64,000 bases of DNA from the NCBI RefSeq assembly GCF_000426045.1, contig NZ_AUEP01000013.1, positions 62,001-126,000 on the forward strand, read 5' to 3'. Under the pieces are notes generated by a model, which saw only the letters and a list, made by a program, of their open reading frames with translations, was not told the origin of the DNA and did not search any database. The stretch is from Marmoricola sp. URHB0036. GTDB lineage: Bacteria > Actinomycetota > Actinomycetes > Propionibacteriales > Nocardioidaceae. Within the stretch, counting starts at the first letter, position 1. Every line of letters starts with the position of its first letter. Positions 424-44,877 of the stretch are shown here, one piece after another. A program made the position numbers and the translations under genes.

Positions 424-1239
424 TCAGTTGCCGGATCCCGGCTCGGCCATGCTGCGGTGCATCGCGGCCTTGAGCTTGTCGGGCATGACCTTGCTGGCCA
501 CGTCCTGGACGCGCGTCTTCAGGCCGCCGCCGGTCACGCGCGGCTTGCCTGCCAGGAGGGCCTCGACACCCTGTTCGGCAACGGTGGCCGGGTCGTCCTT
601 GCTGGCCTGGCCGATCTTGGTGTCCAGCATCCCGGCGCGCTCGAAGAACTCGGTCTCGGTCGGCCCGGGCATCAGCGAGGTGATCGTGACCGCACTGTCC
701 TTCAGCTCGTTCTGGAGGGCCTGGGCGAAGGACTGCACGAACGACTTCGAGGCGTTGTAGACGGCCTGGAACGCGCCGGGCATCTCCGAGGCGATCGAGG
801 ACGTGAACAGCACGCGACCCGAGTCGTTCGCGACCATGTCGCGCAGCACCAGCTTGGCGAGGCGGACGGTGGCGGTGACGTTGAGGTCGATGATCGACTG
901 CTCGTCGGCGAGGTCGGTCTCGACGAACGAGCCGCCCTTGCCGACACCGGCGTTCAGGGCCATCACGTCGAGGGGACGACCGTCCTCCTTGATGGCGGCG
1001 TACAGCTGGTCGACGCCGCTGGGATCACGCAGGTCGGCCCGGACGGTGCGTGCCTGCGCGCCCTCGGCACTGACCTGGTCGGCAGCGCTCTCGAGCGCGT
1101 CGTCCTCGGCATTGATGATCAGGTCGTAGCCACGTCTGGCCAGCGCGAGCGCCAGGTGCAGACCGATGCCGCTGGAAGCCCCGGTCACGGCAGCCAGGGG
1201 ACGGGCGGACGAGCCGGAGGCAGTGCGTTCTTCGCTCAT
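424..1239 (-). CDS. Short-chain dehydrogenase/reductase (SDR)
   Basis: A 271-aa classical SDR. The nucleotide-binding motif TGASSGIG is at residues 19-26, NAGVG near 95, and the catalytic Ser about 146 with YNASK at 160-164. The family reduces or oxidises carbonyl/hydroxyl groups with NAD(P)H; substrate is unknown. I start at the ATG at 1239, whose ATGA overlaps the stop of the upstream glycosyltransferase. A start at 1272 is possible but would extend the N-terminus with non-SDR residues. A GTAT-N15-GGGTAC promoter lies 10 bases upstream inside the glycosyltransferase gene, so it may also be transcribed alone under stress. Confidence 0.9.
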   Translation of the reverse strand: MSEERTASGSSARPLAAVTGASSGIGLHLALALARRGYDLIINAEDDALESAADQVSAEGAQARTVRADLRDPSGVDQLYAAIKEDGRPLDVMALNAGVGKGGSFVETDLADEQSIIDLNVTATVRLAKLVLRDMVANDSGRVLFTSSIASEMPGAFQAVYNASKSFVQSFAQALQNELKDSAVTITSLMPGPTETEFFERAGMLDTKIGQASKDDPATVAEQGVEALLAGKPRVTGGGLKTRVQDVASKVMPDKLKAAMHRSMAEPGSGN

Positions 1240-6948: not shown

Positions 6949-7452
6949 ATGGATCCCGAGATCACCCTCACCGTGGACGGCACCAGGCAGTCGGTGACGG
7001 TCGACACCAGGACCACCTTGCTCGATGCACTGAGGGAACGGCTCGGCATCACCGAGCCGAAGAAGGGCTGTGACCACGGCCAGTGCGGTTCGTGCACGGT
7101 GCTGCTGGACGGACGTCGCCAGCTGACTTGCCTGGCTCTCGCCGTCGCGCATGACGGTGCGGACGTCGTCACCGCCGGCGGCTTGGCGCGCGACGGCCTC
7201 CACCCCGTCCAACAGGCGTTCCTCGACCACGACGGTTATCAGTGCGGCTACTGCACGCCCGGCCAGGTGTGCTCGGCGGTGGGCATGATCGAGGAGGCAA
7301 AGAACGGCCACCCGAGCCATGTCAGCGAGGACCTCGAGGGCGGCGTCGACCTGACCGACGATGAGATCAGGGAACGGATGAGCGGCAATCTCTGTCGCTG
7401 CGGTGCCTATGCCGGGATCCTGGCTGCCGTACGGCAAGCGGCCCAGGCATGA
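6949..7452 (+). CDS. Aldehyde/xanthine oxidoreductase, [2Fe-2S] subunit (PaoA/YagT-like)
   Basis: A 167-aa small subunit. The N-terminal plant-type [2Fe-2S] domain has GCDHGQCGSCTVLLDG plus a fourth Cys (LTCLA), and the C-terminal [2Fe-2S] domain has QCGYCTPGQVC and NLCRCGAY. It passes electrons from the molybdenum centre to FAD. E. coli PaoA carries a Tat leader; here the protein starts directly at MDPEITLTV, so the enzyme should be cytoplasmic. GGGTAC (6934-6939) lies 9 bases before the ATG, without a matching -35. The downstream FAD subunit starts by ATGA overlap. Confidence 0.92.
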   Translation: MDPEITLTVDGTRQSVTVDTRTTLLDALRERLGITEPKKGCDHGQCGSCTVLLDGRRQLTCLALAVAHDGADVVTAGGLARDGLHPVQQAFLDHDGYQCGYCTPGQVCSAVGMIEEAKNGHPSHVSEDLEGGVDLTDDEIRERMSGNLCRCGAYAGILAAVRQAAQA

Positions 7453-14342: not shown

Positions 14343-15956
14343 TCACCCGAATGTCGGGAGGTCCTGGTCGTGCACCAGCATCCCGGCGAACAGGTCACCC
14401 GTCTCCGCGATCCGTTGCGGCGCCGTACGGATGGTCCAGCGATCCGGTCGCAGCTCGGGGTCGTCGAGCTCGTGCCAGCCGATCGGCATGCTGACCGGAG
14501 CCCCGGCCGCGGGCCGGGTGGAGTACGGCGCGACGAGGGTCTTGTTGATCGCGTTCTGGGTGTAGTCGAGCCGGGCCCGGCCACCGCGTTCGCGCTTCTG
14601 CCACTTCCAGCTGACGAGCTCGGGAACGACCGCTCCGACCGTGCGGGACACCTGCTCGACCCACCGCCGGGTCTCGTCGAACTCGAGGTCCGCACGGATC
14701 GGGACCCAGATCTGGATGCCGCGTCGCCCGGTGACCTTGGGTTGCGCCCGCACGCCGAGCCTCTCGAACGCGGTGCGGTGCAGCCGGGCCAGGACGAGCA
14801 CCTCCTCCCAAGAGGTGTCCTCGCCCGGGTCGATGTCGAACAGGGCGTAGGTCGGACGCTCGGGCCCCGAGGTCAGCGAGGTCCACGGGTGCCACTCCAG
14901 CGCCCCGAAGTTGGCGGCCCACAGCAGAGCGGCCGGCTCGTCAGCGACCAGGTAGGTCTGGGTCTCGCCGGGTCCAGCGAGCGGGTTGTCCCACCGCGGT
15001 AACCAGTCGGGAGCATGGTCCGGCACCTCCTTGTGCCAGAACGACTTGCCCTCGGACCCGTCGGGGTAGCGGTGCAGGTTCAGCGCTCGTCCCTTGAGGT
15101 AGGGCACCGACACGGGCGCCACCTGTGCGACGTAGCGCAGGAAGTCCCGCTTGGTGATCGGGTGCTCGCTTCCGCGTCCGGGAAACAGCACCTTGTCGAG
15201 GTTCGTGACCTTGAGCTGCCGGCCGAAGACCTGCCAGACACCCTCCTTGCCGAGAGCCTCGAGCCCGGCGAGCTCGTCCTCGTCGGCGAGGTCCGAGGAG
15301 GACCGGACCTCCTCGGCCGCCTCGGCAGCCGGCAGCTCCGAGTGCCAGCGCCGATCGGGGTCAGCCTCGACCTCGGCGTTGGTGCGTCCGCTGAGCACCG
15401 AGCGCGGATGGTCCTCCGGGTCCCATCCCTCGACGGCGTGGTCGTCGTGCTTGTGCAGCAACAGCCAGTGCTCCTTGCCGTCGTCCCGGTCATCCGGTTT
15501 CCGCTCGGTGCGCACCAGCACCAGTCGGCCGTGCAGCTTGGTGCCGTGCACCTCGGCGTGCAGCTCCCCGTCGGCGACGGCTGCCATCGGGTCGTCGGTG
15601 CCGTGCGGCTCCCAGGTGCCGCGGTCCCAGACGATGACGTCGCCGCCGCCGTACTCACCCTTCGGGATCACTCCCTCGAAGTCGGCGTACTCCACGGGAT
15701 GGTCCTCGACGTGGACCGCCATCCGTCGTACGGACGGGTCCAGGGTGGGTCCCTTGGGCACGGCCCAGGAGACCAGTACCCCGTCGATCTCGAAGCGCAG
15801 GTCGTAGTGCAGGTTGCGGGCCCGGTGACGCTGTACGACGAAGCGTCGCTCGCCGGTACTCGCGGCACCGGTGCGCTCCCCGGAGGGCTCTGGTGTCGAC
15901 TCGAAGTCGCGCTTCTCGCGATACCGGCCCAGCGATTCCCGTACTGCGTCGCCCAC
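14343..15956 (-). CDS. LigD-like protein: 3'-phosphoesterase plus primase-polymerase, no ligase domain
   Basis: 537 aa from GTG 15956. Residues about 36-190 are the LigD phosphoesterase domain, with QRHRARNLHYDLRFE (metal-binding His), VPKGPTLDP and PKGEYGGGDV. Residues about 230-530 form the AEP-type polymerase domain: LKVTNLDKVLFPG, FDIDPGEDTSW with the catalytic acidic pair, GRRGIQIWVPI and RLDYTQNAINKT. These act in Ku-dependent non-homologous end joining. A separate ligase lies at 30211-31164; no Ku gene is in the window. I prefer GTG 15956 because GGGTAC (15972-15967) lies 10 bases upstream, and that element would otherwise sit inside the ATG 15974 start. Confidence 0.88.
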   Translation of the reverse strand: MGDAVRESLGRYREKRDFESTPEPSGERTGAASTGERRFVVQRHRARNLHYDLRFEIDGVLVSWAVPKGPTLDPSVRRMAVHVEDHPVEYADFEGVIPKGEYGGGDVIVWDRGTWEPHGTDDPMAAVADGELHAEVHGTKLHGRLVLVRTERKPDDRDDGKEHWLLLHKHDDHAVEGWDPEDHPRSVLSGRTNAEVEADPDRRWHSELPAAEAAEEVRSSSDLADEDELAGLEALGKEGVWQVFGRQLKVTNLDKVLFPGRGSEHPITKRDFLRYVAQVAPVSVPYLKGRALNLHRYPDGSEGKSFWHKEVPDHAPDWLPRWDNPLAGPGETQTYLVADEPAALLWAANFGALEWHPWTSLTSGPERPTYALFDIDPGEDTSWEEVLVLARLHRTAFERLGVRAQPKVTGRRGIQIWVPIRADLEFDETRRWVEQVSRTVGAVVPELVSWKWQKRERGGRARLDYTQNAINKTLVAPYSTRPAAGAPVSMPIGWHELDDPELRPDRWTIRTAPQRIAETGDLFAGMLVHDQDLPTFG

Positions 15957-28163: not shown

Positions 28164-28298
28164 TTACGGCGTGTCCAGGTCAGGGTCCGGGACGCTCTCG
28201 GGCTCGTCCGGGCCGGGACCGGGGGCCTCCGTGCCCGGGTCGGGGTCGCGAGGGGCGATGTCGGGCTCCTGCACCGGTTCGCTCGGCGTGGTGGTCAT
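28164..28298 (-). CDS. 44-aa acidic Pro/Asp-rich peptide, copy 1
   Basis: ATG 28298 to TAA 28164. The peptide starts MTTTPSEPVQEPDIAP and ends PDPDLDTP; it is rich in Pro, Asp and Glu with no hydrophobic segment, so probably disordered. A paralogue of exactly the same length lies at 34549-34683 with the same start (MTTTP-EPVQ-PD); most differences in the first 15 codons are silent or conservative, which supports real coding. It is preceded, 9 bases before the ATG, by a perfect GTTT-N14-GGGTAC promoter. No Shine-Dalgarno, so the mRNA is probably leaderless. Function unknown. Confidence 0.65.
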   Translation of the reverse strand: MTTTPSEPVQEPDIAPRDPDPGTEAPGPGPDEPESVPDPDLDTP

Positions 28299-28307
28299 GT
28301 GCCTTCG

Positions 28308-28331
28308 GTACCCACCGATCGCGAGGGAAAC
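28308..28331 (-). promoter_or_regulatory. Consensus sigma-B/F promoter for the 44-aa peptide
   Basis: Minus strand GTTT (28331-28328), 14-base spacer, GGGTAC (28313-28308): the best match in the window to the GTTT/GGGTAT-type consensus. The -10 ends 9 bases before the ATG at 28298. Confidence 0.65.
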
Positions 28332-28507
28332 CGGTCGGCCCGGCTGTCGATCTTACGGCGCCGGAAGGGCTGGCGCGGTGTAGCGTGATGGGCACTACCC
28401 CGGGAGGGTCAAACCCCGGCTCTCCTTGGTGGGCTCACAGCGATCCCGTGTGGCGAACGCTCTCTGTGCTCCTTCCGTAGCCGAGAGTGTCGAAGGTGAT
28501 GCGCGTG

Positions 28508-29203
28508 ATGAACCGCGACATCGGTGTGGCCCTGTCCGAGGCTGCACGCAGGGTCGGTCAGTCAACCAGCGTCGAGGAGATGCTGGAGACGATCGTGCAC
28601 ACGGCGCAGCTCTCGCTGCCGGGCTTCGAGCACGTGGGCATCTCCACCATCGACGAGCGCGGCAACATCGAGACGCGGGCGCAGACAGGTGAGCTGGTCA
28701 AGCAGCTCGACGACCTGCAGTACGGGTTGGGTGAGGGGCCGTGCGTGGACACCCTGCGCAGCGCCCACCTGGTCGAGGCGCCCCACATCCGGCACGACCA
28801 GCGGTGGCCTCGCTACGTCCCGGCCGCGGTGGAGCTGGGGCTGAAGTCGCAGTTCGCGGTCCAGCTCTACCTCGACGACGAGGGCACCCTGGGCGGCCTG
28901 AACATCTACTCGACCAGCACCGAGGACATCGACGACGAGGCGCCGGTCATCGCCGACCTGTTCGCTACCCAGGCGGCACTGGCCCTGGGCAAGGTGCGCG
29001 AGCTCACCAACCTCAACCATGCCTTGCATAGCCGCGAGGTGATCGGCAAGGCCATCGGGATGGTGATGGCCACCTACAAGCTCGACCAGGACGCTGCGTT
29101 CGCCTTCCTGGCCCGGGTCTCCTCGACCTCGAACGTGAAGGTGCGCGATCTCGCGGCGCACATGATCGAGGAGCACGAGGACGACGTACGTTCCGGCCGC
29201 TGA
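28508..29203 (+). CDS. GAF-ANTAR transcription antitermination regulator
   Basis: 231 aa. Residues about 10-160 form a GAF sensor (LPGFEHVGISTIDERGNIETRAQTG; GEGPCVDTLR; PRYVPAAVELGLKSQFAVQLYLDDEGTLGGLNIYS), and the C-terminus is an ANTAR domain (SREVIGKAIGMVMATYKLDQDAAFAFLARVSSTSNVKVRDLAAHMIEE). It would bind terminator-proximal hairpins in RNA in response to a small ligand or redox signal. The start is ambiguous: in-frame GTG 28487, ATG 28499 and ATG 28508. The last has AGGTGAT, complementary to the 16S tail, seven bases before it. Convergent with a second GAF-ANTAR gene. Confidence 0.9.
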   Translation: MNRDIGVALSEAARRVGQSTSVEEMLETIVHTAQLSLPGFEHVGISTIDERGNIETRAQTGELVKQLDDLQYGLGEGPCVDTLRSAHLVEAPHIRHDQRWPRYVPAAVELGLKSQFAVQLYLDDEGTLGGLNIYSTSTEDIDDEAPVIADLFATQAALALGKVRELTNLNHALHSREVIGKAIGMVMATYKLDQDAAFAFLARVSSTSNVKVRDLAAHMIEEHEDDVRSGR

Positions 29204-29218
29204 ACGGCGCGCTGTCGC

Positions 29219-29938
29219 TCAGAGCTGACGCTCGTGCGCGTCCAGGATGAACCGCGCCAGGTCGGAAACAGCGACGCCGGCGCGTTGGGCGCCGTTCGTG
29301 ATCCGCTGCGCCGCTGTGACCAGGTCGGTGCCGAGGTACTCCGCGATCAGGCCACTGGCCACATCGACCGCCGTCTTCTCCCGCATCCGCGCCGGGGTGG
29401 CCGCTGCCCGGATGCGACTGGTGAAGTCCAGGTCGGCGTTGGTCACGGCGCCTCCCGCCCATGCTCCGCACACTGCCGCCAGGTCCTCGTGGTGTCCGTC
29501 GAAGGCGGTTGGTGTCGAGGCGTAGAGATTGACGCCACCGACCAGGCCACCCTCGTGCAGCACCGGCAGGGAGAGGCTGCTCGCCACCCCGGCGGTGCTC
29601 CAGCCGCGGGCGAGCAGCTGCCAGTGGTCCTCGGCGAGCGGGTTGGTCACCGCCGTGGTCTCGCCGGTGCGCATCGCGCGTTCGCACGGCCCGGAGTCGA
29701 CGTACTGCAGGGCGTCGATCAGCGCTGCCTCGCGGTTGTCGGAGATGAGGGTGAACGTGTAGTCCGTCCCGGCGTAGCACAGGCTGAGTGCGACACACTC
29801 GGGGACGATCTGACGCACGCCGCGTCCCATCTCCAGAAGCGAGGTCTCGACGTCGCGTCCCTGACCGTACGACGAGAGCCAGTCGAGGGCTTCTCGGCTC
29901 TCGGCAACGGGCCGCAGCTCAGGTTCGAGTTCCGACAT
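29219..29938 (-). CDS. GAF-ANTAR transcription antitermination regulator
   Basis: 239 aa. The GAF domain covers residues about 30-165 (CVALSLCYAGTDYTFTLISDNREA; DSGPCERAMRTGE; GVASSLSLPVLHEGGLVGGVNLYAS), and the ANTAR-like helices run from REKTAVDVASGLIAEYLGTDLVTAAQRITNGAQRAGVAVSDLARFIL. The ANTAR core is more divergent than in its neighbour. The ATG at 29938 lies 10 bases after a GTAT-N15-GGGTAC promoter; reading from further upstream would place the promoter inside the gene. Third ANTAR protein within 4 kb. Confidence 0.88.
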   Translation of the reverse strand: MSELEPELRPVAESREALDWLSSYGQGRDVETSLLEMGRGVRQIVPECVALSLCYAGTDYTFTLISDNREAALIDALQYVDSGPCERAMRTGETTAVTNPLAEDHWQLLARGWSTAGVASSLSLPVLHEGGLVGGVNLYASTPTAFDGHHEDLAAVCGAWAGGAVTNADLDFTSRIRAAATPARMREKTAVDVASGLIAEYLGTDLVTAAQRITNGAQRAGVAVSDLARFILDAHERQL

Positions 29939-29948
29939 GTGCGCCCCT

Positions 29949-29973
29949 GTACCCACTTGAGCGCTATCGATAC
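29949..29973 (-). promoter_or_regulatory. Sigma-B/F-like promoter for GAF-ANTAR gene
   Basis: Minus strand GTAT (29973-29970), 15-base spacer, GGGTAC (29954-29949), ten bases before the ATG at 29938. Same -35 tetramer and spacer as the SDR promoter at 1250-1274. Confidence 0.6.
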
Positions 29974-30042
29974 GTGGCGGACTCGACGTCCAGGAAGAGT
30001 ACGGCGCGACATGCCCTTGGCCCGGTCGGGTACCGGGGGCGT

Positions 30043-30189
30043 ATGAAAACCCGCCACGGCCTGGCCCTCACCGTCCTCGGGGCGATCTTCCTCGTGCTCG
30101 TCGTGTTCCTGGTCATCTCCTGGGCGCACGGGGACGAGAGCAACCACGGTGGCGCGGGGATGCACGCACTCCACAGCACCCTTCGCTAG
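30043..30189 (+). CDS. Small single-pass membrane protein, 48 aa
   Basis: ATG 30043. MKTRHG is followed by a strong hydrophobic stretch (LALTVLGAIFLVLVVFLVISW, residues 7-27) and a His/Gly/Ser-rich tail. It looks like an N-in single-pass membrane protein. GGGTAC (30028-30033) lies exactly nine bases before the ATG, the arrangement seen at other starts here, although no GNNT -35 is at the right distance. The ligase gene follows 21 bases downstream. No family recognised. Confidence 0.55.
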   Translation: MKTRHGLALTVLGAIFLVLVVFLVISWAHGDESNHGGAGMHALHSTLR

Positions 30190-30210
30190 ACGACCGCCGC
30201 TACGCGCAGC

Positions 30211-31164
30211 ATGCCGACCGCACCGACGCCCGCCCTCGCCACCTTGTGCCACGACCGTTTCTGGGAGCCCGGCTGGGTCTACGAGCGCAAGCTCGACGGG
30301 CAGCGCGTCCTGGCCGTCCGTGACGCCTCCGGCGTCCGCCTGTACTCGCGCTCGGGACGGGACGTCTCGGCGGCCTTCCCGGAGGTGGCCGACGCGCTGG
30401 CCGAGCAGGCGGCGGAGGCGTTCGTCGTCGACGGAGAAGTGGTTGCCTTCGAGGGACCACGGACCAGCTTCGCGCGGTTGCAACCCCGCATCCACGTCGC
30501 GAACGCGGAGCAGGCGCGCCGCTCGGGGGTGGCGATCTGGTTCTACGTCTTCGACGTGCTCGAGGCCGAGGGGAGCGACCTGAGGGACGAGCCGCTGCTG
30601 GAACGCAAGCGGCGCCTCCGAACGCTGCTGCGGTGGCAGCGGCCGCTGCGCTCGACGCCGCACCGCGTCAACGGCGGCGAGCGGTGGTTCGCCGAGATCT
30701 GTCGGCAGGGCTGGGAGGGGTTGATCGCGAAGCGCAGCGACGCGACGTACCCGTCAGGACGCACCGACAGCTGGCTGAAGTTCAAGTGCGAGGCCGGTCA
30801 GGAGCTGGTCGTCGTCGGCTGGACCGATCCCGAGCGCTCCCGTGTCGCGCTCGGTGCGCTGCTGCTCGCCTACCACGACCGGTCCGCCGACGGCGACGAC
30901 CTGGTGTACGCCGGCAAGGTCGGGACCGGGTTCTCCCAGGCGGTGCTGCGTGCGCTGCACGATCGACTGACGAGCATCGAGGTCGACGAGTCCCCGTGCA
31001 CGAAGGGAAAGCTGCCGAGCAAGGGTGTCCACTGGGCTCGGCCCGAGCTGGTCGCCCAGGTGGCCTTCACCGAGTGGACGACCGCGGGACAGCTGCGGCA
31101 CCCGCGCTACCTCGGCCTGCGCGACGACAAGAGCGCCGACGACGTGGTGCGGGAGAGCGGCTGA
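30211..31164 (+). CDS. ATP-dependent DNA ligase (LigD-type ligase domain, stand-alone)
   Basis: 317 aa. The adenylation lysine is Lys27 in ERKLDGQR (motif I, KxDGxR). Motif III is FYVFDVL, motif IV EGLIAKR, motif V SWLKFKC, and an OB-fold follows (GQELVVVGWTDPER ... LVYAGKVGTGF). It seals nicks using ATP. In many actinobacteria this domain is fused to the phosphoesterase and polymerase domains in LigD; here those domains are at 14343-15956, so the end-joining enzyme is split over two genes. It could also serve in other repair. Confidence 0.92.
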   Translation: MPTAPTPALATLCHDRFWEPGWVYERKLDGQRVLAVRDASGVRLYSRSGRDVSAAFPEVADALAEQAAEAFVVDGEVVAFEGPRTSFARLQPRIHVANAEQARRSGVAIWFYVFDVLEAEGSDLRDEPLLERKRRLRTLLRWQRPLRSTPHRVNGGERWFAEICRQGWEGLIAKRSDATYPSGRTDSWLKFKCEAGQELVVVGWTDPERSRVALGALLLAYHDRSADGDDLVYAGKVGTGFSQAVLRALHDRLTSIEVDESPCTKGKLPSKGVHWARPELVAQVAFTEWTTAGQLRHPRYLGLRDDKSADDVVRESG

Positions 31165-31254
31165 GCTCCGGTCGCGCTGGTCGTCATGGACCTTGGGTGG
31201 AGAACCCCCGTCAGGTGGGTACAACGAGGAGGACCGACCAGAAAGGAATCGATC

Positions 31255-31479
31255 ATGCCGAGCAAGTCAGCCAACGTGAAGAACGAGAAGCAGTACGAGA
31301 AGCTCAAGGACAAGGGCATGTCGAAGGAGCGTGCCGCCAAGATCGCCAACGCGCCGAAGTCCTCCAAGCACGGTGGGGAGCAGAGCGGCAAGGGCGGCGA
31401 CAGCTCGCAGGGTGGCACCACGGCCCAGAAGAAGAAGGCCGGCCGCAAGGGAGGGAAGGCCTCGTCCGGCAAGTCGTGA
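31255..31479 (+). CDS. Small basic Lys/Gly/Ser-rich protein, 74 aa
   Basis: ATG 31255 with AAAGGA about eight bases upstream. The N-terminal half, NVKNEKQYEKLKDKGMSKERAAKIANAP, is a conserved helical motif of a widespread small actinobacterial protein family of unknown function; the C-terminal half is low-complexity Gly/Ser/Lys, suggesting nucleic acid binding. The GTGA overlap couples it to the CinA-like gene. GGGTAC at 31217-31222 is a possible stress -10 without a good -35. Confidence 0.8.
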   Translation: MPSKSANVKNEKQYEKLKDKGMSKERAAKIANAPKSSKHGGEQSGKGGDSSQGGTTAQKKKAGRKGGKASSGKS

Positions 31480-31955
31480 CAGCCGACGGCACCCGGGTCA
31501 AGCGGATCGCGCGGCTCGCGACGGACGGCGGCGTCACGATCGCGACGTCGGAGTCGCTCACCAGCGGGATCGTCGCGACGAGGCTCGGTGAGGGCCCGGA
31601 CGCAGCGCAGTGGTTCCGGGGCGGGGTGATCGCCTACCAGGAGGGCGTCAAGTTCGACCTGCTCGGAGTGGCCGAGGGGCCCGTCGTCACGGCCGAGTGC
31701 GCCGAGCAGATGGCCTCGGGGGCGCGCAAGCTGCTCGGGGCCGACGTCGTGGTCTCGGCCACCGGTGTCGGCGGCCCCGAACCGAGCGAGGGTAAGCCGC
31801 CCGGGACCGTGTTCCTCGCGGTCGTGACGCCGACCGGGGCGACGGTCCGGGAGCTGGCGCTCGACGGTGACCCGGAGGAGGTGCTCCACGGGGTCGCGTC
31901 CGCGAGCCTCGGCCTGCTGGAGGACGTCCTCGAGGGGGACCAGCCCGACCGCTAG
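31476..31955 (+). CDS. CinA C-terminal-type NMN amidohydrolase (PncC-like)
   Basis: 159 aa starting at GTG 31476, overlapping the previous stop (GTGA). It contains TIATSESLTSGIVATRLGEG, WFRGGVIAYQEGVKFDLLGV, VTAECAEQMASGARKLLGADVVVSATGVGGP and GKPPGTVFLAVVTP, all typical of the CinA C-terminal domain, with the Ser in ATSES as nucleophile. This family deamidates nicotinamide mononucleotide to nicotinate mononucleotide in NAD recycling. Length matches stand-alone PncC. Its TAG shares the CTAG with the stop of the convergent MerR-family gene. Confidence 0.88.
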   Translation: MTADGTRVKRIARLATDGGVTIATSESLTSGIVATRLGEGPDAAQWFRGGVIAYQEGVKFDLLGVAEGPVVTAECAEQMASGARKLLGADVVVSATGVGGPEPSEGKPPGTVFLAVVTPTGATVRELALDGDPEEVLHGVASASLGLLEDVLEGDQPDR

Positions 31956-32239
31956 CGCGGGTCCTGGCGCAGCCGCCGGTTGGCCGTGCGTAGTCGAGCG
32001 ACCTCGGCCTCCAGCGCCAGCACCCGCGTGATCCCGGCCAGGTTGAGGCCCTCGCCCAACAGGTCCCGGACGCGCGCCAGCTTCTCGATGTCGGCGTGGC
32101 TGTAGAGGCGGGTGCCCCCGGGCGTACGGGTCGGTTCCACGAGACCGTGGCGTTCGTAGACCCGGAGGTTCTGCACCTGCGTCGACAGCATCTCGGCCGC
32201 CACCGAAATGGCGAACAGGCCCACGTGGCGTTGTGGCAC
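31952..32239 (-). CDS. HspR-like MerR-family repressor
   Basis: 95 aa. AISVAAEMLSTQVQNLRVYERHGLVEPTRTPGGTRLYSHADIEKLARV is a MerR winged helix, closest in pattern to HspR (ISVAAEL...QTLR.YER.GLV.P.RT.G..R.YS..D). The coiled-coil tail (EAEVARLRTANRRL) fits HspR. HspR represses heat-shock genes such as dnaK, clpB and hsp20. It is divergent from hsp20. Start is probably GTG 32239. No canonical HAIR box (CTTGAGT-N7-ACTCAAG) is visible between the two genes. Confidence 0.85.
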   Translation of the reverse strand: MPQRHVGLFAISVAAEMLSTQVQNLRVYERHGLVEPTRTPGGTRLYSHADIEKLARVRDLLGEGLNLAGITRVLALEAEVARLRTANRRLRQDPR

Positions 32240-32270
32240 GACCTCGTCCCATCTTCGTCGGCAGATTCCC

Positions 32271-32300
32271 TTGCACGGAAACTATCTCATGGGCTATAAG
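32271..32300 (+). promoter_or_regulatory. Sigma-A type promoter of hsp20
   Basis: TTGCAC (32271-32276), 18-base spacer, TATAAG (32295-32300), about 65 bases upstream of the Hsp20 ATG. It stands in an unusually AT-rich stretch. Divergent from the HspR-like gene. Confidence 0.65.
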
Positions 32301-32371
32301 AAACCTGAAACTGCCAATACAGGTCGACTCCCGCTCGCAGGGGCGATCGACCACGAGGATCAGGAGGAGCA

Positions 32372-32797
32372 ATGTTGCTGCGCACTACCGACCCGTTCCG
32401 TGACTTCGACCGCCTGACCCAGCAGCTCCTGGGCACCACCAACCGGCCGGTCGTGATGCCGATGGACGCGTGGCGCGAGGGCGACAGGTTCGTCATCGAG
32501 TTCGACCTGCCGGGCGTCAGCCCGCAGACGATCGACCTCGACGTGGAGCGCAATGTGCTGACCGTCAGCGCCGAGCGGGTCGCTCGCAACGGCGACTGGG
32601 AGATGCTCGCGTCCGAGCGCCCCAGGGGCCGGTTCAGCCGCCAGCTGGTGCTGGGCGACAACCTCGACCTCGATCGCATCGAGGCCGGCTACGACGCCGG
32701 CGTACTCCGTCTCACGGTGCCGGTGGCGGAGAAGGCCAAGCCGCGCAAGATCACGATCACCGACGCCAGCGACGAGCGCACGGCGATCGAGGCCTGA
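32372..32797 (+). CDS. Small heat-shock protein, Hsp20/alpha-crystallin
   Basis: 141 aa; ATG 32372 is preceded by AGGAGGAGC. The N-terminal arm is [21 protein letters not shown]. The alpha-crystallin domain (about 28-130) reads [39 protein letters not shown] ... [45 protein letters not shown], with GVLRLTVP as the conserved strand motif. The protein is an ATP-independent holdase for unfolded proteins. It is likely controlled by the divergent HspR-like repressor. Confidence 0.95.
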
Positions 32798-32805
32798 ACC
32801 TCCGC

Positions 32806-32862
32806 GCACGGCCACGCAGACCTCACGCCGGTTCCGTCAGCCGATGGCCTGCGTGGCCGTGC
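32806..32862. terminator. 14-bp perfect inverted repeat, bidirectional terminator
   Basis: GCACGGCCACGCAG (32806-32819) pairs perfectly with 32849-32862 around a 29-base loop, between the convergent hsp20 and nnrD genes. The symmetric stem and position suit a terminator for both directions. Confidence 0.65.
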
Positions 32863-32875
32863 CACCAGCCCGTGG

Positions 32876-33739
32876 TCAGCTGAGCTCGGCCAGCAGCAGC
32901 GGGACCTGGTCGACGAGCTCCCGGGCCAGGAACCCGACGCGGCCGATCGAGGAGGCCAGTCGCTCTCCGGACACCGAGTGCAGGTACGTCGCCCAGCACG
33001 CGGCCTGCTCGGGCTCGACAGCACGGGCGAGCAGTCCGACCACGAGCCCGGCCAGCACGTCCCCGCTGCCGGCGGTTGCCAGGCCCGGGTGACCGGACGG
33101 GACTCGCCAGGCCCCGCCCACGCCGTCCGCGATCATGCCCTGTGCCGTCACGCAGGAGGAGTAGCCGGCCGCGGCCTCGGCGACGTCCTCCAGCTCGGGC
33201 TCGCACTCCCGGTCCAGCAGGCGACCCAGCTCCTCGGCGTTGGGCGTCAGCACCGGACGCACCTTGCGGTCGGACAGGCGATCGCGGAAGTCGGGCAGGA
33301 CACCGAGGGCGTAGGCGTCGAGGACCAGGGCCGTGTCGTCCCCGAGGTGGGGGAGGAGATCCCGCAGCAGGTCGGCGGCCTCGTCGGCGTCGTCGAGCCC
33401 GGGTCCGACCAGCACGGCGTCGGCGCCGGCGACCACCTCGGCACAGCGCTCGGCGGCGGCTGAGCCCTGGATGCTCCCGCTGGAGGTCTCGGCCAGGCCG
33501 ATGACCCCTGCCTCGGGGAAGTTCGCCGCGAGCGGGGCCGCCACCGAGGAGGCGACGGCGAGCTGCACGTGTCCGGCGCCGACACGGAGCGCCGCGAGCC
33601 CGGCCAGGGCCGCACCTCCAGGAGTGCCGGCGGCACCGCCGATCACGACGAGCTGACCGCGCGCCTTCTTGGAGCTCGCCGGGTCGGGCAACGGCCAGCC
33701 GCGCAGCAGCTCGGGTGTCACCAGCTCAGGATCCGACAT
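32876..33739 (-). CDS. nnrD: ADP-dependent NAD(P)H-hydrate dehydratase
   Basis: 287 aa with the ribokinase-like NnrD fold: ARGQLVVIGGAAGTPGGAALAGLAALRVGAGHV near residue 28, VLVGPGLDD, RPVLTPNAEELGRLL and ATAGSGDVLAGLV, where the Asp of GSGD is catalytic. It dehydrates damaged NADHX/NADPHX using ADP. No NnrE (epimerase) domain is fused, so this is the single-function form. Start at 33739 overlaps the upstream phosphatase stop by 14 bases. Confidence 0.92.
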   Translation of the reverse strand: MSDPELVTPELLRGWPLPDPASSKKARGQLVVIGGAAGTPGGAALAGLAALRVGAGHVQLAVASSVAAPLAANFPEAGVIGLAETSSGSIQGSAAAERCAEVVAGADAVLVGPGLDDADEAADLLRDLLPHLGDDTALVLDAYALGVLPDFRDRLSDRKVRPVLTPNAEELGRLLDRECEPELEDVAEAAAGYSSCVTAQGMIADGVGGAWRVPSGHPGLATAGSGDVLAGLVVGLLARAVEPEQAACWATYLHSVSGERLASSIGRVGFLARELVDQVPLLLAELS

Positions 33740-34460
33740 GACGCTCCCCTCGGTGCTCGGTGATCTCCGCGCCGTGGTCGTCGAGGTGGGAGACCTCGTC
33801 GTACGACGCCACCGTCCAGCCGCCGTCGGCCTGGCGCACCAACCTGCTCAGCGAGGCGTTGTGCACCGGTGTGCTGCGGGCCAGCTCGAGCACCTCGGCC
33901 TCGTCCAACCCTTCGCAGACGTAGCGCAGCAGCGCGATCACGATGTCGTGGCTCACCACCAGGAGACGCCCGGCCGGCAGCTCGCGGTCGAGGTCGGCCA
34001 GCCACGAGCGCAGGCGCAGGACCACGTCGGCCCACGACTCCCCGCCGGCCGGCCGGTGGTAGAACTTGCCCTGCCAGCGACGGCGCTCGGCCTCCTCCGG
34101 GAAGCGTGCCTCGACGCCGGCGAAGGTGAGCCGGTCGAGCACGCCGAGCTCCCGGTCGCGCAGGCGCTCGTCGACCCGCGTGGGCAGGTCGAGCCCGGCT
34201 TCCGCGCACGCCAGGCGGGCCGTCTCGCGAGCCCGCACGTAGGGCGAGGTGACCACGACCTGGGGGAGGGTCGCCTCGGCCATCGCCGCGAGGGCCGTTC
34301 CAGCAGCGGCGGCTTGCTCTCGCCCGCGTTCGGACAGATCGACGTCAGGGTCGCGGGCCGGCACGTCGATCTGGTGTGCCCCGGAGGCGTGCGCCTCGGC
34401 GGCGGCGACGTTCCCCTCGCTCTCTCCGTGCCGGATCAGCAACAGCTCGCTCACTGCCAT
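33726..34460 (-). CDS. Histidine phosphatase superfamily protein
   Basis: 244 aa with the phosphohistidine motif LLIRHGESEGN at residues 7-17, a second Arg in SPYVRARETA, Glu in RDRELGVL and the second catalytic His in LLVVSHDIVIALL. It is a phosphoglycerate-mutase-like phosphatase; substrate unknown. Upstream of and overlapping nnrD, hence co-transcribed, perhaps in metabolite repair. Confidence 0.9.
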   Translation of the reverse strand: MAVSELLLIRHGESEGNVAAAEAHASGAHQIDVPARDPDVDLSERGREQAAAAGTALAAMAEATLPQVVVTSPYVRARETARLACAEAGLDLPTRVDERLRDRELGVLDRLTFAGVEARFPEEAERRRWQGKFYHRPAGGESWADVVLRLRSWLADLDRELPAGRLLVVSHDIVIALLRYVCEGLDEAEVLELARSTPVHNASLSRLVRQADGGWTVASYDEVSHLDDHGAEITEHRGERHVGS

Positions 34461-34548
34461 GGGTGGGACTCTCCTCGAGACGAAGGGACGGTCTGTCGGG
34501 GTGTCCTGCCATCGGCGCGAAGCAGCAGGGTCACCTGGTCGACGAGGA

Positions 34549-34683
34549 CTACCGGGTGTCGGGGTCCTCGGCCGGGCCGCCGGCGTCCTCGCCGGGTGAC
34601 ACGGGGTCGATGGGGTTCGTATTCGGGTCCCCGGAGGGCACGACGTCGGGGTCCTGCACGGGTTCGTTGGGAGTGGTGGTCAT
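34549..34683 (-). CDS. 44-aa acidic Pro/Asp-rich peptide, copy 2
   Basis: ATG 34683 to TAG 34549, starting MTTTPNEPVQDPDVVP and ending EDPDTR. It has the same length and N-terminal half as the peptide at 28164-28298, while the C-terminal half has diverged but stays Pro/Asp/Gly-rich. Like copy 1 it has no Shine-Dalgarno, and GGGTAC ends ten bases before the ATG. Probably disordered and stress-induced; function unknown. Lies between the phosphatase gene and the LLM oxidoreductase. Confidence 0.65.
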   Translation of the reverse strand: MTTTPNEPVQDPDVVPSGDPNTNPIDPVSPGEDAGGPAEDPDTR

Positions 34684-34693
34684 GCGGTGGCCC

Positions 34694-34718
34694 GTACCCA
34701 TGAGAGTGCGGGTGATGC
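34694..34718 (-). promoter_or_regulatory. Sigma-B/F-like promoter for second 44-aa peptide
   Basis: Minus strand GCAT (34718-34715), 15-base spacer, GGGTAC (34699-34694), ten bases before the ATG at 34683. Confidence 0.6.
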
Positions 34719-37400: not shown

Positions 37401-37670
37401 TCAGCCGTGTCCCAGCGCGCGGGCCAGCTCGTCGCGGCCCATCTTCGATCGGCCCCTGAGGTTGCGCCGCTTGGCTTCCTCGTAGAGCTCCTGCCGGGTC
37501 TTCGGGCTCGTCGCTCCACTGCGCTTGCGCTGCGCCACAGCCGCGCCCTGCTTGCCGAGGGCCGTCCTGGTCGCCTTCGGCATGTGGGCGAGGGACCGCT
37601 GTTGCTCGGCAGCCTTGGCCGCCTTGCGAATGTTCTTCTTTGCTGCCTGGGTCTGATTACGCGTGGCCAT
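37401..37670 (-). CDS. Small basic protein with Rho-N/SAP-like C-terminal motif
   Basis: 89 aa, Lys/Arg/Ala-rich. The first half (NQTQAAKKNIRKAAKAAEQQRSL) is a basic helix; the C-terminus TRQELYEEAKRRNLRGRSKMGRDELARALG is the helix-extended-helix found at the N-terminus of Rho and in small nucleoid-associated proteins. A nucleic-acid-binding role is likely. GGGTAC (37685-37680) lies nine bases before ATG 37670, so the mRNA would be nearly leaderless. Confidence 0.75.
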   Translation of the reverse strand: MATRNQTQAAKKNIRKAAKAAEQQRSLAHMPKATRTALGKQGAAVAQRKRSGATSPKTRQELYEEAKRRNLRGRSKMGRDELARALGHG

Positions 37671-44782: not shown

Positions 44783-44877
44783 GGAGGCGTACCTCGTCTG
44801 GTGACGGGCGCGGTCCTCAACACCGTAGTGACCGGGCATCCCGGTCAGGCGGGTTCGATTCCCGTCCGCCTCCGCCA
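44783..44877 (+). tRNA. selC: tRNA-Sec, anticodon TCA
   Basis: 95 bases with encoded CCA. Acceptor GGAGGCG pairs with CGCCTCC (the eighth pair, T-C, is a mismatch), discriminator G. A six-pair D stem closes a four-base loop (CTCGTC-TGGT-GACGGG, 44793-44808). Anticodon stem GCGGT/ACCGT; loop CCTCAAC with TCA at 44817-44819; position 33 is C rather than the usual U. A long variable arm has seven pairs (GACCGGG-CAT-CCCGGTC, 44830-44846) and the T loop is TTCGATT. The 6-bp D stem, long variable arm and TCA anticodon identify selenocysteine tRNA. It lies 29 bases upstream of selA on the same strand. Confidence 0.95.

Follow-up and report, generated by a model that had tools for sequence, protein, structure and literature searches.

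Do two short reading frames, described as unannotated and lying some 6 kb apart in Marmoricola sp. URHB0036, belong to an overlooked family of bacterial peptides and, if so, how might such genes be expressed and what might their products do? The question arises in a 64,000-nt stretch of contig NZ_AUEP01000013.1 (the window), for which a first-pass annotation had proposed that two genes, here designated ORF1 and ORF2, encode paralogous acidic peptides transcribed from stress promoters. Both 44-aa frames are present on the minus strand where that annotation placed them (Table 1). Their products have the N-terminus MTTTP(S/N)EPVQ(E/D)PD(I/V)(A/V)P in common and carry net charges of -11 (ORF1) and -9 (ORF2).

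Table 1. Coordinates, in window positions, of the two peptide genes, their expression signals and associated genes
Feature	Position	Strand	Remarks
ORF1, 44-aa acidic Pro/Asp-rich peptide MTTTPSEPVQEPDIAPRDPDPGTEAPGPGPDEPESVPDPDLDTP	28164..28298	-	own-genome profile match, E 1.6e-6
ATGACCACCACGCC, CA-rich start of ORF1	28285..28298	-	codon 4 is ACG; family majority ACA
GGGTAC, -10 box of sigma-B-type promoter, ORF1	28308..28313	-	ends 9 nt before ATG
GTTT, -35 core, ORF1	28328..28331	-	14 nt from -10 box; consensus PMC8346170
Cytochrome P450 gene	26889..28127	-	37 nt downstream of ORF1
ORF2, 44-aa acidic peptide MTTTPNEPVQDPDVVPSGDPNTNPIDPVSPGEDAGGPAEDPDTR	34549..34683	-	own-genome profile match, E 7.3e-14
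ATGACCACCACTCC, CA-rich start of ORF2	34670..34683	-	codon 4 is ACT
GGGTAC, -10 box, ORF2	34694..34699	-	ends 10 nt before ATG
GCAT, -35 core (GNNT), ORF2	34715..34718	-	15 nt from -10 box
Other gene	424..1239	-	GGGTAC 15-16 nt before ATG
Other gene	6949..7452	+	GGGTAC 15-16 nt before ATG
Other gene	29219..29938	-	GGGTAC 15-16 nt before ATG
Other gene	30043..30189	+	GGGTAC 15-16 nt before ATG
Other gene	37401..37670	-	GGGTAC 15-16 nt before ATG

Chance likeness between low-complexity frames would be the simplest account of this pair, given that GC-rich genomes abound in Pro/Asp/Gly-rich frames and that weak partial matches occur in other families. The global alignment of ORF1 and ORF2 nevertheless scores 92, a value reached by none of 20,000 composition-preserving shuffles (mean 35.1, sd 8.8, maximum 78). 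Together with the fixed promoter spacing, codon-position signature and taxonomic restriction detailed below, this result refutes chance similarity, to which we assign next to no probability. Profile searches of the genome locate three members of the family: ORF1, ORF2, which is the closest of the three to the family consensus, and a 71-aa paralog on the same strand, about 7.5 kb before the window (C12:54270-54485).

The family extends well beyond this genome. A degenerate N-terminal pattern detects the family in 10 genomes, this one among them, out of 24 from the genus (reversed control, 0) and in 66 of 342 Nocardioidaceae genomes (one control match), and a profile built from 42 members and applied with a cut-off of E <= 0.001 matches 84 of the 342. 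Across 84,980 species genomes the exact pattern yields 39 matches, every one of them in Nocardioides or Marmoricola, and profile searches of an evenly drawn sample of the class Actinomycetes reveal no convincing homolog outside Nocardioidaceae, where matches are weak (best E 7.5e-4) and mostly fall inside long frames. No model in Pfam, NCBIfam or PHROGs matches the peptides, a tblastn search of plasmids returns no match, and a profile search of the PDB gives low-complexity matches only, chiefly to circumsporozoite repeats. Identity with Pup was considered and rejected: Pup ends in a C-terminal Gly-Gly-Gln/Glu, and the C-terminus of the present family is not conserved and has no such ending. 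With 71 unique members, conservation reaching beyond this genome and undisrupted frames, the claim of an overlooked family is supported, and at the level of sequence comparison the family is genuine, previously uncatalogued and confined to Nocardioides and close relatives.

Members conform to the consensus MTTTPxEPxxDPxVVPSGDP, beyond which the tail is variable, acidic and Pro-rich. P12, P16 and P20 are invariant, and S17, G18 and D19 are kept in at least 90% of members; SGDP is conserved although it is absent from every search pattern. The conserved block therefore runs beyond the stretch initially described, with DPxVVPSGDP in most relatives. ORF1 deviates from VVPSGDP in having IAPRDPDP, and both window peptides show the features by which the family is defined, namely an N-terminal MTTTPxEP, prolines at 12, 16 and 20, and a short frame. 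Two of the resemblances pointed out originally do not generalize. The PD-DT ending is not kept across the family, and the identical length of 44 aa, true of ORF1 and ORF2, is coincidental rather than a family feature, since members span 33-76 aa (the shortest being truncated at a locus end). In pairs picked by nucleotide identity, differences per site amount to 0.12 at each of the first two codon positions and to 0.27 at the third, and this 2.3-fold higher divergence of third positions, the pattern of a translated gene, shows that the peptide is under selection. The closest pair (loci L005 and L010) shows a pS of 0.17 and a pN of 0.01. Pairs picked by protein identity give a Ka/Ks of 0.34, a value biased by that choice of pairs, and the codon-position test was for this reason used in its place.

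How the genes are expressed can be approached from their upstream regions. The SigB-family consensus of Streptomyces coelicolor comprises GNNT and GGGTAC separated by approximately 14-16 nt (PMC8346170), and the same architecture precedes both window genes, confirming the early observation of a GGGTAC ending 9-10 bases before the ATG (Table 1). Taking GGGTA as the reference, the distance to the ATG is 15 nt for ORF1 and 16 nt for ORF2, and 65 of the 71 unique members carry either GGGTA (37) or GCGTA (28) 14-16 nt before the ATG, at exactly 15 nt in 50 members; in the same loci, GGGTA stands at this distance before 0.9% of all ATGs. GGGTA members, which occur in many different contexts, display a GNNT-like signal upstream, while the 28 GCGTA members, which include a syntenic set and are not independent of one another, display a strong GTTGC. 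Unlike the S. coelicolor promoters (PMC8346170), 28 of these 65 combine GCGTA with a GTTGC -35 element, and on motif evidence the family promoters agree with the SigB-family consensus of Streptomyces, of which the GCGTA form is a variant. This GTTGC/GGCGTA variant is found upstream of L027, L029, L037 and 25 other members, largely a syntenic Nocardioides set that adjoins a ketoacyl-ACP-synthase-III-like gene. The original designation of these sites as stress promoters stands insofar as they match a sigma-B-type consensus in a genome with four strong SigB/F/G-like sigma genes; that support is one of motif, from which we infer stress expression, as we infer the molecular function of the peptides.

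The position of the promoter also bears on translation. In two members (L012 and L063) GGGTAC lies further upstream, and a Shine-Dalgarno sequence, GAGGAGG or CAGGAGG, appears before the ATG. Taken with the Shine-Dalgarno sequence of these two members, the fixed spacing of the -10 box in most others suggests mRNAs with little or no leader, their 5' ends being predicted from promoter position. We also considered GGGTAC as a ribosome-binding site and rejected it: its T and A are invariant, it mismatches the anti-Shine-Dalgarno sequence, and members with a distant GGGTAC carry GGAGG. Genome-wide, GGGTACN8-10ATG occurs 56 times, barely above the 45 of the control, so for an individual gene the spacing by itself proves nothing.

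The first codons of these genes display a further regularity. Of the 66 members with Thr at codon 4, 54 encode it by ACA, generating ATGACCACSACACC, a CA repeat following the start codon. ACA is rare elsewhere: it accounts for 2.1% of the Thr codons of neighbouring genes and for 8 of the 146 that come later in the same peptides, and it is found in none of the eight unrelated genes read that have the same promoter-plus-MTT layout, against a majority of the peptide genes. Synonymous divergence is 0.35 at codons 2-4, below the 0.59 seen at codons 5-8. In predicted RNA folds, the start becomes slightly more structured once codon 4 is changed to ACC or ACG (unpaired, 0.618, against 0.645 for the native form), and 69% of members lie above their synonymous shuffles, an effect too weak for RNA structure alone to account for the ACA bias. 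Silent-site selection at codon 4 is likely rather than proven, because descent explains part of the ACA signal. The window copies, with ACG and ACT, lack ACA at this position. CA repeats after the start codon raise translation of both leaderless and leadered mRNAs in E. coli (reviewed in PMC9031893), and ACA motifs near Shine-Dalgarno sites are translation enhancers (PMC3879156). The 14 bases encoding the conserved MTTTP might double as a CA-repeat enhancer, making these peptides lineage-specific stress micropeptides produced preferentially when stress favours leaderless messages; we advance this idea tentatively and consider it more apt to fail than to hold.

Genomic context provides a means of weighing explanations in which the peptide serves another gene. 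The P450 gene downstream of ORF1 is probably co-transcribed with it, an arrangement not conserved in the family, and a phosphatase gene follows ORF2 at 89 nt. These two neighbours, and the co-directed gene that lies less than 100 nt downstream in 23 of 45 members, are what might be expected of leader peptides, or upstream ORFs, whose translation controls a downstream gene, a role proposed earlier for certain mycobacterial small ORFs that are leaderless (PMC4633059). The next gene is nonetheless convergent in 14 of the 45, leaving nothing downstream to regulate; across 41 loci, downstream genes are unrelated save for one syntenic set; and amino-acid conservation is N-terminal, away from the junction. 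The variety of downstream genes and the convergent neighbours make a general leader-peptide role improbable. A precursor of a RiPP-like modified peptide, with a conserved leader and a variable core, would resemble the family in its conserved N-terminus and variable C-terminus, and tandem copies do occur in L005, L006 and L010; in two genomes a second copy overlaps the first by ATGA. We regard this origin as very improbable: the same 41 loci contain no conserved neighbouring maturation gene, and the tails are rich in Pro, Asp and Glu, lack Cys and are almost devoid of Lys.

The surroundings of the peptide genes are themselves rich in the -10 motif. GGGTAC occurs 35 times in the window against 16 expected, and of the 56 GGGTACN8-10ATG sites in the genome 13 fall on the 190-kb contig, including those of small genes and of a GAF-domain gene beside the peptides, a distribution consistent with a stress-gene island. 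Among the GGGTAC-preceded genes of the window are those for a 48-aa membrane-type peptide, a GAF/ANTAR-like protein and an 89-aa basic protein. Genes for ANTAR-type regulators adjoin peptide genes in the window (28487-29203) and at the unrelated loci L065, L067, L071, L074 and L079, and the 71-aa paralog is convergent with such a gene, within about 40 nt. The same island carries a LigD phosphoesterase/primase-polymerase and an ATP-dependent DNA ligase as separate genes some 14 kb apart (14343-15956 and 30211-31164), and the sole tRNA of the window is a tRNA-Sec gene (44783-44877, plus strand).

If the peptides are products in their own right, their composition and their conserved segment suggest different modes of action. 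The family averages 28% Pro and a net charge of -9.8, the charge-hydropathy boundary places all 71 members on its disordered side, and AlphaFold applied to 38 sequences yields a pTM of 0.17 and no secondary structure, in agreement with the disorder anticipated by the first-pass annotation; confidence is higher in residues 1-20 than in the tail. One possibility, which we rate as somewhat unlikely, is a composition-driven protectant resembling hydrophilins or other acidic disordered proteins, which would accumulate in osmotic, desiccation or stationary stress and guard proteins or balance charge while needing no particular partner. Hydrophilins are likewise small, hydrophilic, disordered and presumed stress-induced, and such a role would suit the stress-type promoter, the extreme solubility, the variable tail and the existence of promoter-sharing peptides with unrelated acidic sequence. 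Both window peptides also pass the hydrophilin cut-offs (Gly >6% and GRAVY < -1). Only 17 of the 71 members meet both, however, so that the family is not filed under hydrophilins; its 28% Pro and conserved N-terminal motif lie outside their definition, and the first 20 residues are kept at the level of sequence, a point against this reading.

L188, L208, L212 and L214 encode small acidic peptides that share the promoter and the MTTT start yet lack VVPSGDP. They possibly represent a wider class, and their acidity in the absence of that motif speaks for a role based on composition rather than on docking; the departure of ORF1 from VVPSGDP likewise tells against docking. Outside Nocardioidaceae, L225 encodes an acidic MTTTPFEP peptide of 68 aa, preceded by GGGTAC at much the same distance; it is the one acidic candidate returned class-wide by the promoter-plus-MTTT pattern, whose matches outside the family are mostly ordinary genes.

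The explanation that we prefer, and to which we give an even chance, is that the family consists of disordered peptides that are controlled by a stress sigma factor, are translated without a leader and act through a linear motif conserved at the N-terminus. Transcription of the peptide genes by a SigB/F/G-type stress sigma factor would begin about 0-4 nt before the AUG, and translation would be leaderless, aided by the CA-rich start. The peptide would remain unfolded in the cytosol, where the extended N-terminal segment PxEPxxDPxVVPSGDP might serve as a short linear motif for docking to a partner protein, with the variable acidic, Pro-rich tail conferring charge and solubility. It is the sequence conservation of the first 20 residues that suggests docking, and we favour docking over a role based on composition with modest confidence. 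A small disordered protein able to fold on its partner is exemplified by CrsL, a 5.7-kDa partner of CarD and RNA polymerase in actinobacteria (PMC12709188). The present peptides are likewise small, disordered and actinobacterial; compared by description, CrsL is conserved in residues 20-45 across many actinobacteria, whereas conservation here involves residues 1-20 and is restricted to Nocardioidaceae.

A second point of reference is provided by the leaderless small proteins of mycobacteria, which start at or near the mRNA 5' end, are often unannotated and in some cases lead operons (PMC4633059). The genes described here are likewise short frames predicted to start at or near the 5' end. The mycobacterial set was derived from RNA-seq and ribosome profiling and spans several families, whereas ours is one homologous family with 5' ends deduced from promoter position, and the fixed-spacing stress-type promoter sets it apart from the mycobacterial proteins (PMC4633059). 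What is new, judged from sequence, is an uncatalogued family with a consistent expression architecture and a silent-site bias at codon 4, for which a function may be proposed. The promoter-plus-start signature could be used to find further such genes: about 23 of the 31 genes read with it in Nocardioidaceae encode short acidic or Pro-rich peptides. The family also offers a natural series of GGGTA promoters, GCGTA promoters, distant promoters with a Shine-Dalgarno sequence and coupled tandem copies, in which the spacing of the promoter, initiation without a leader and the CA-rich start of the coding region can be compared in a single homologous gene. Actinobacterial stress biology thereby gains a testable, hitherto uncatalogued family of small proteins.
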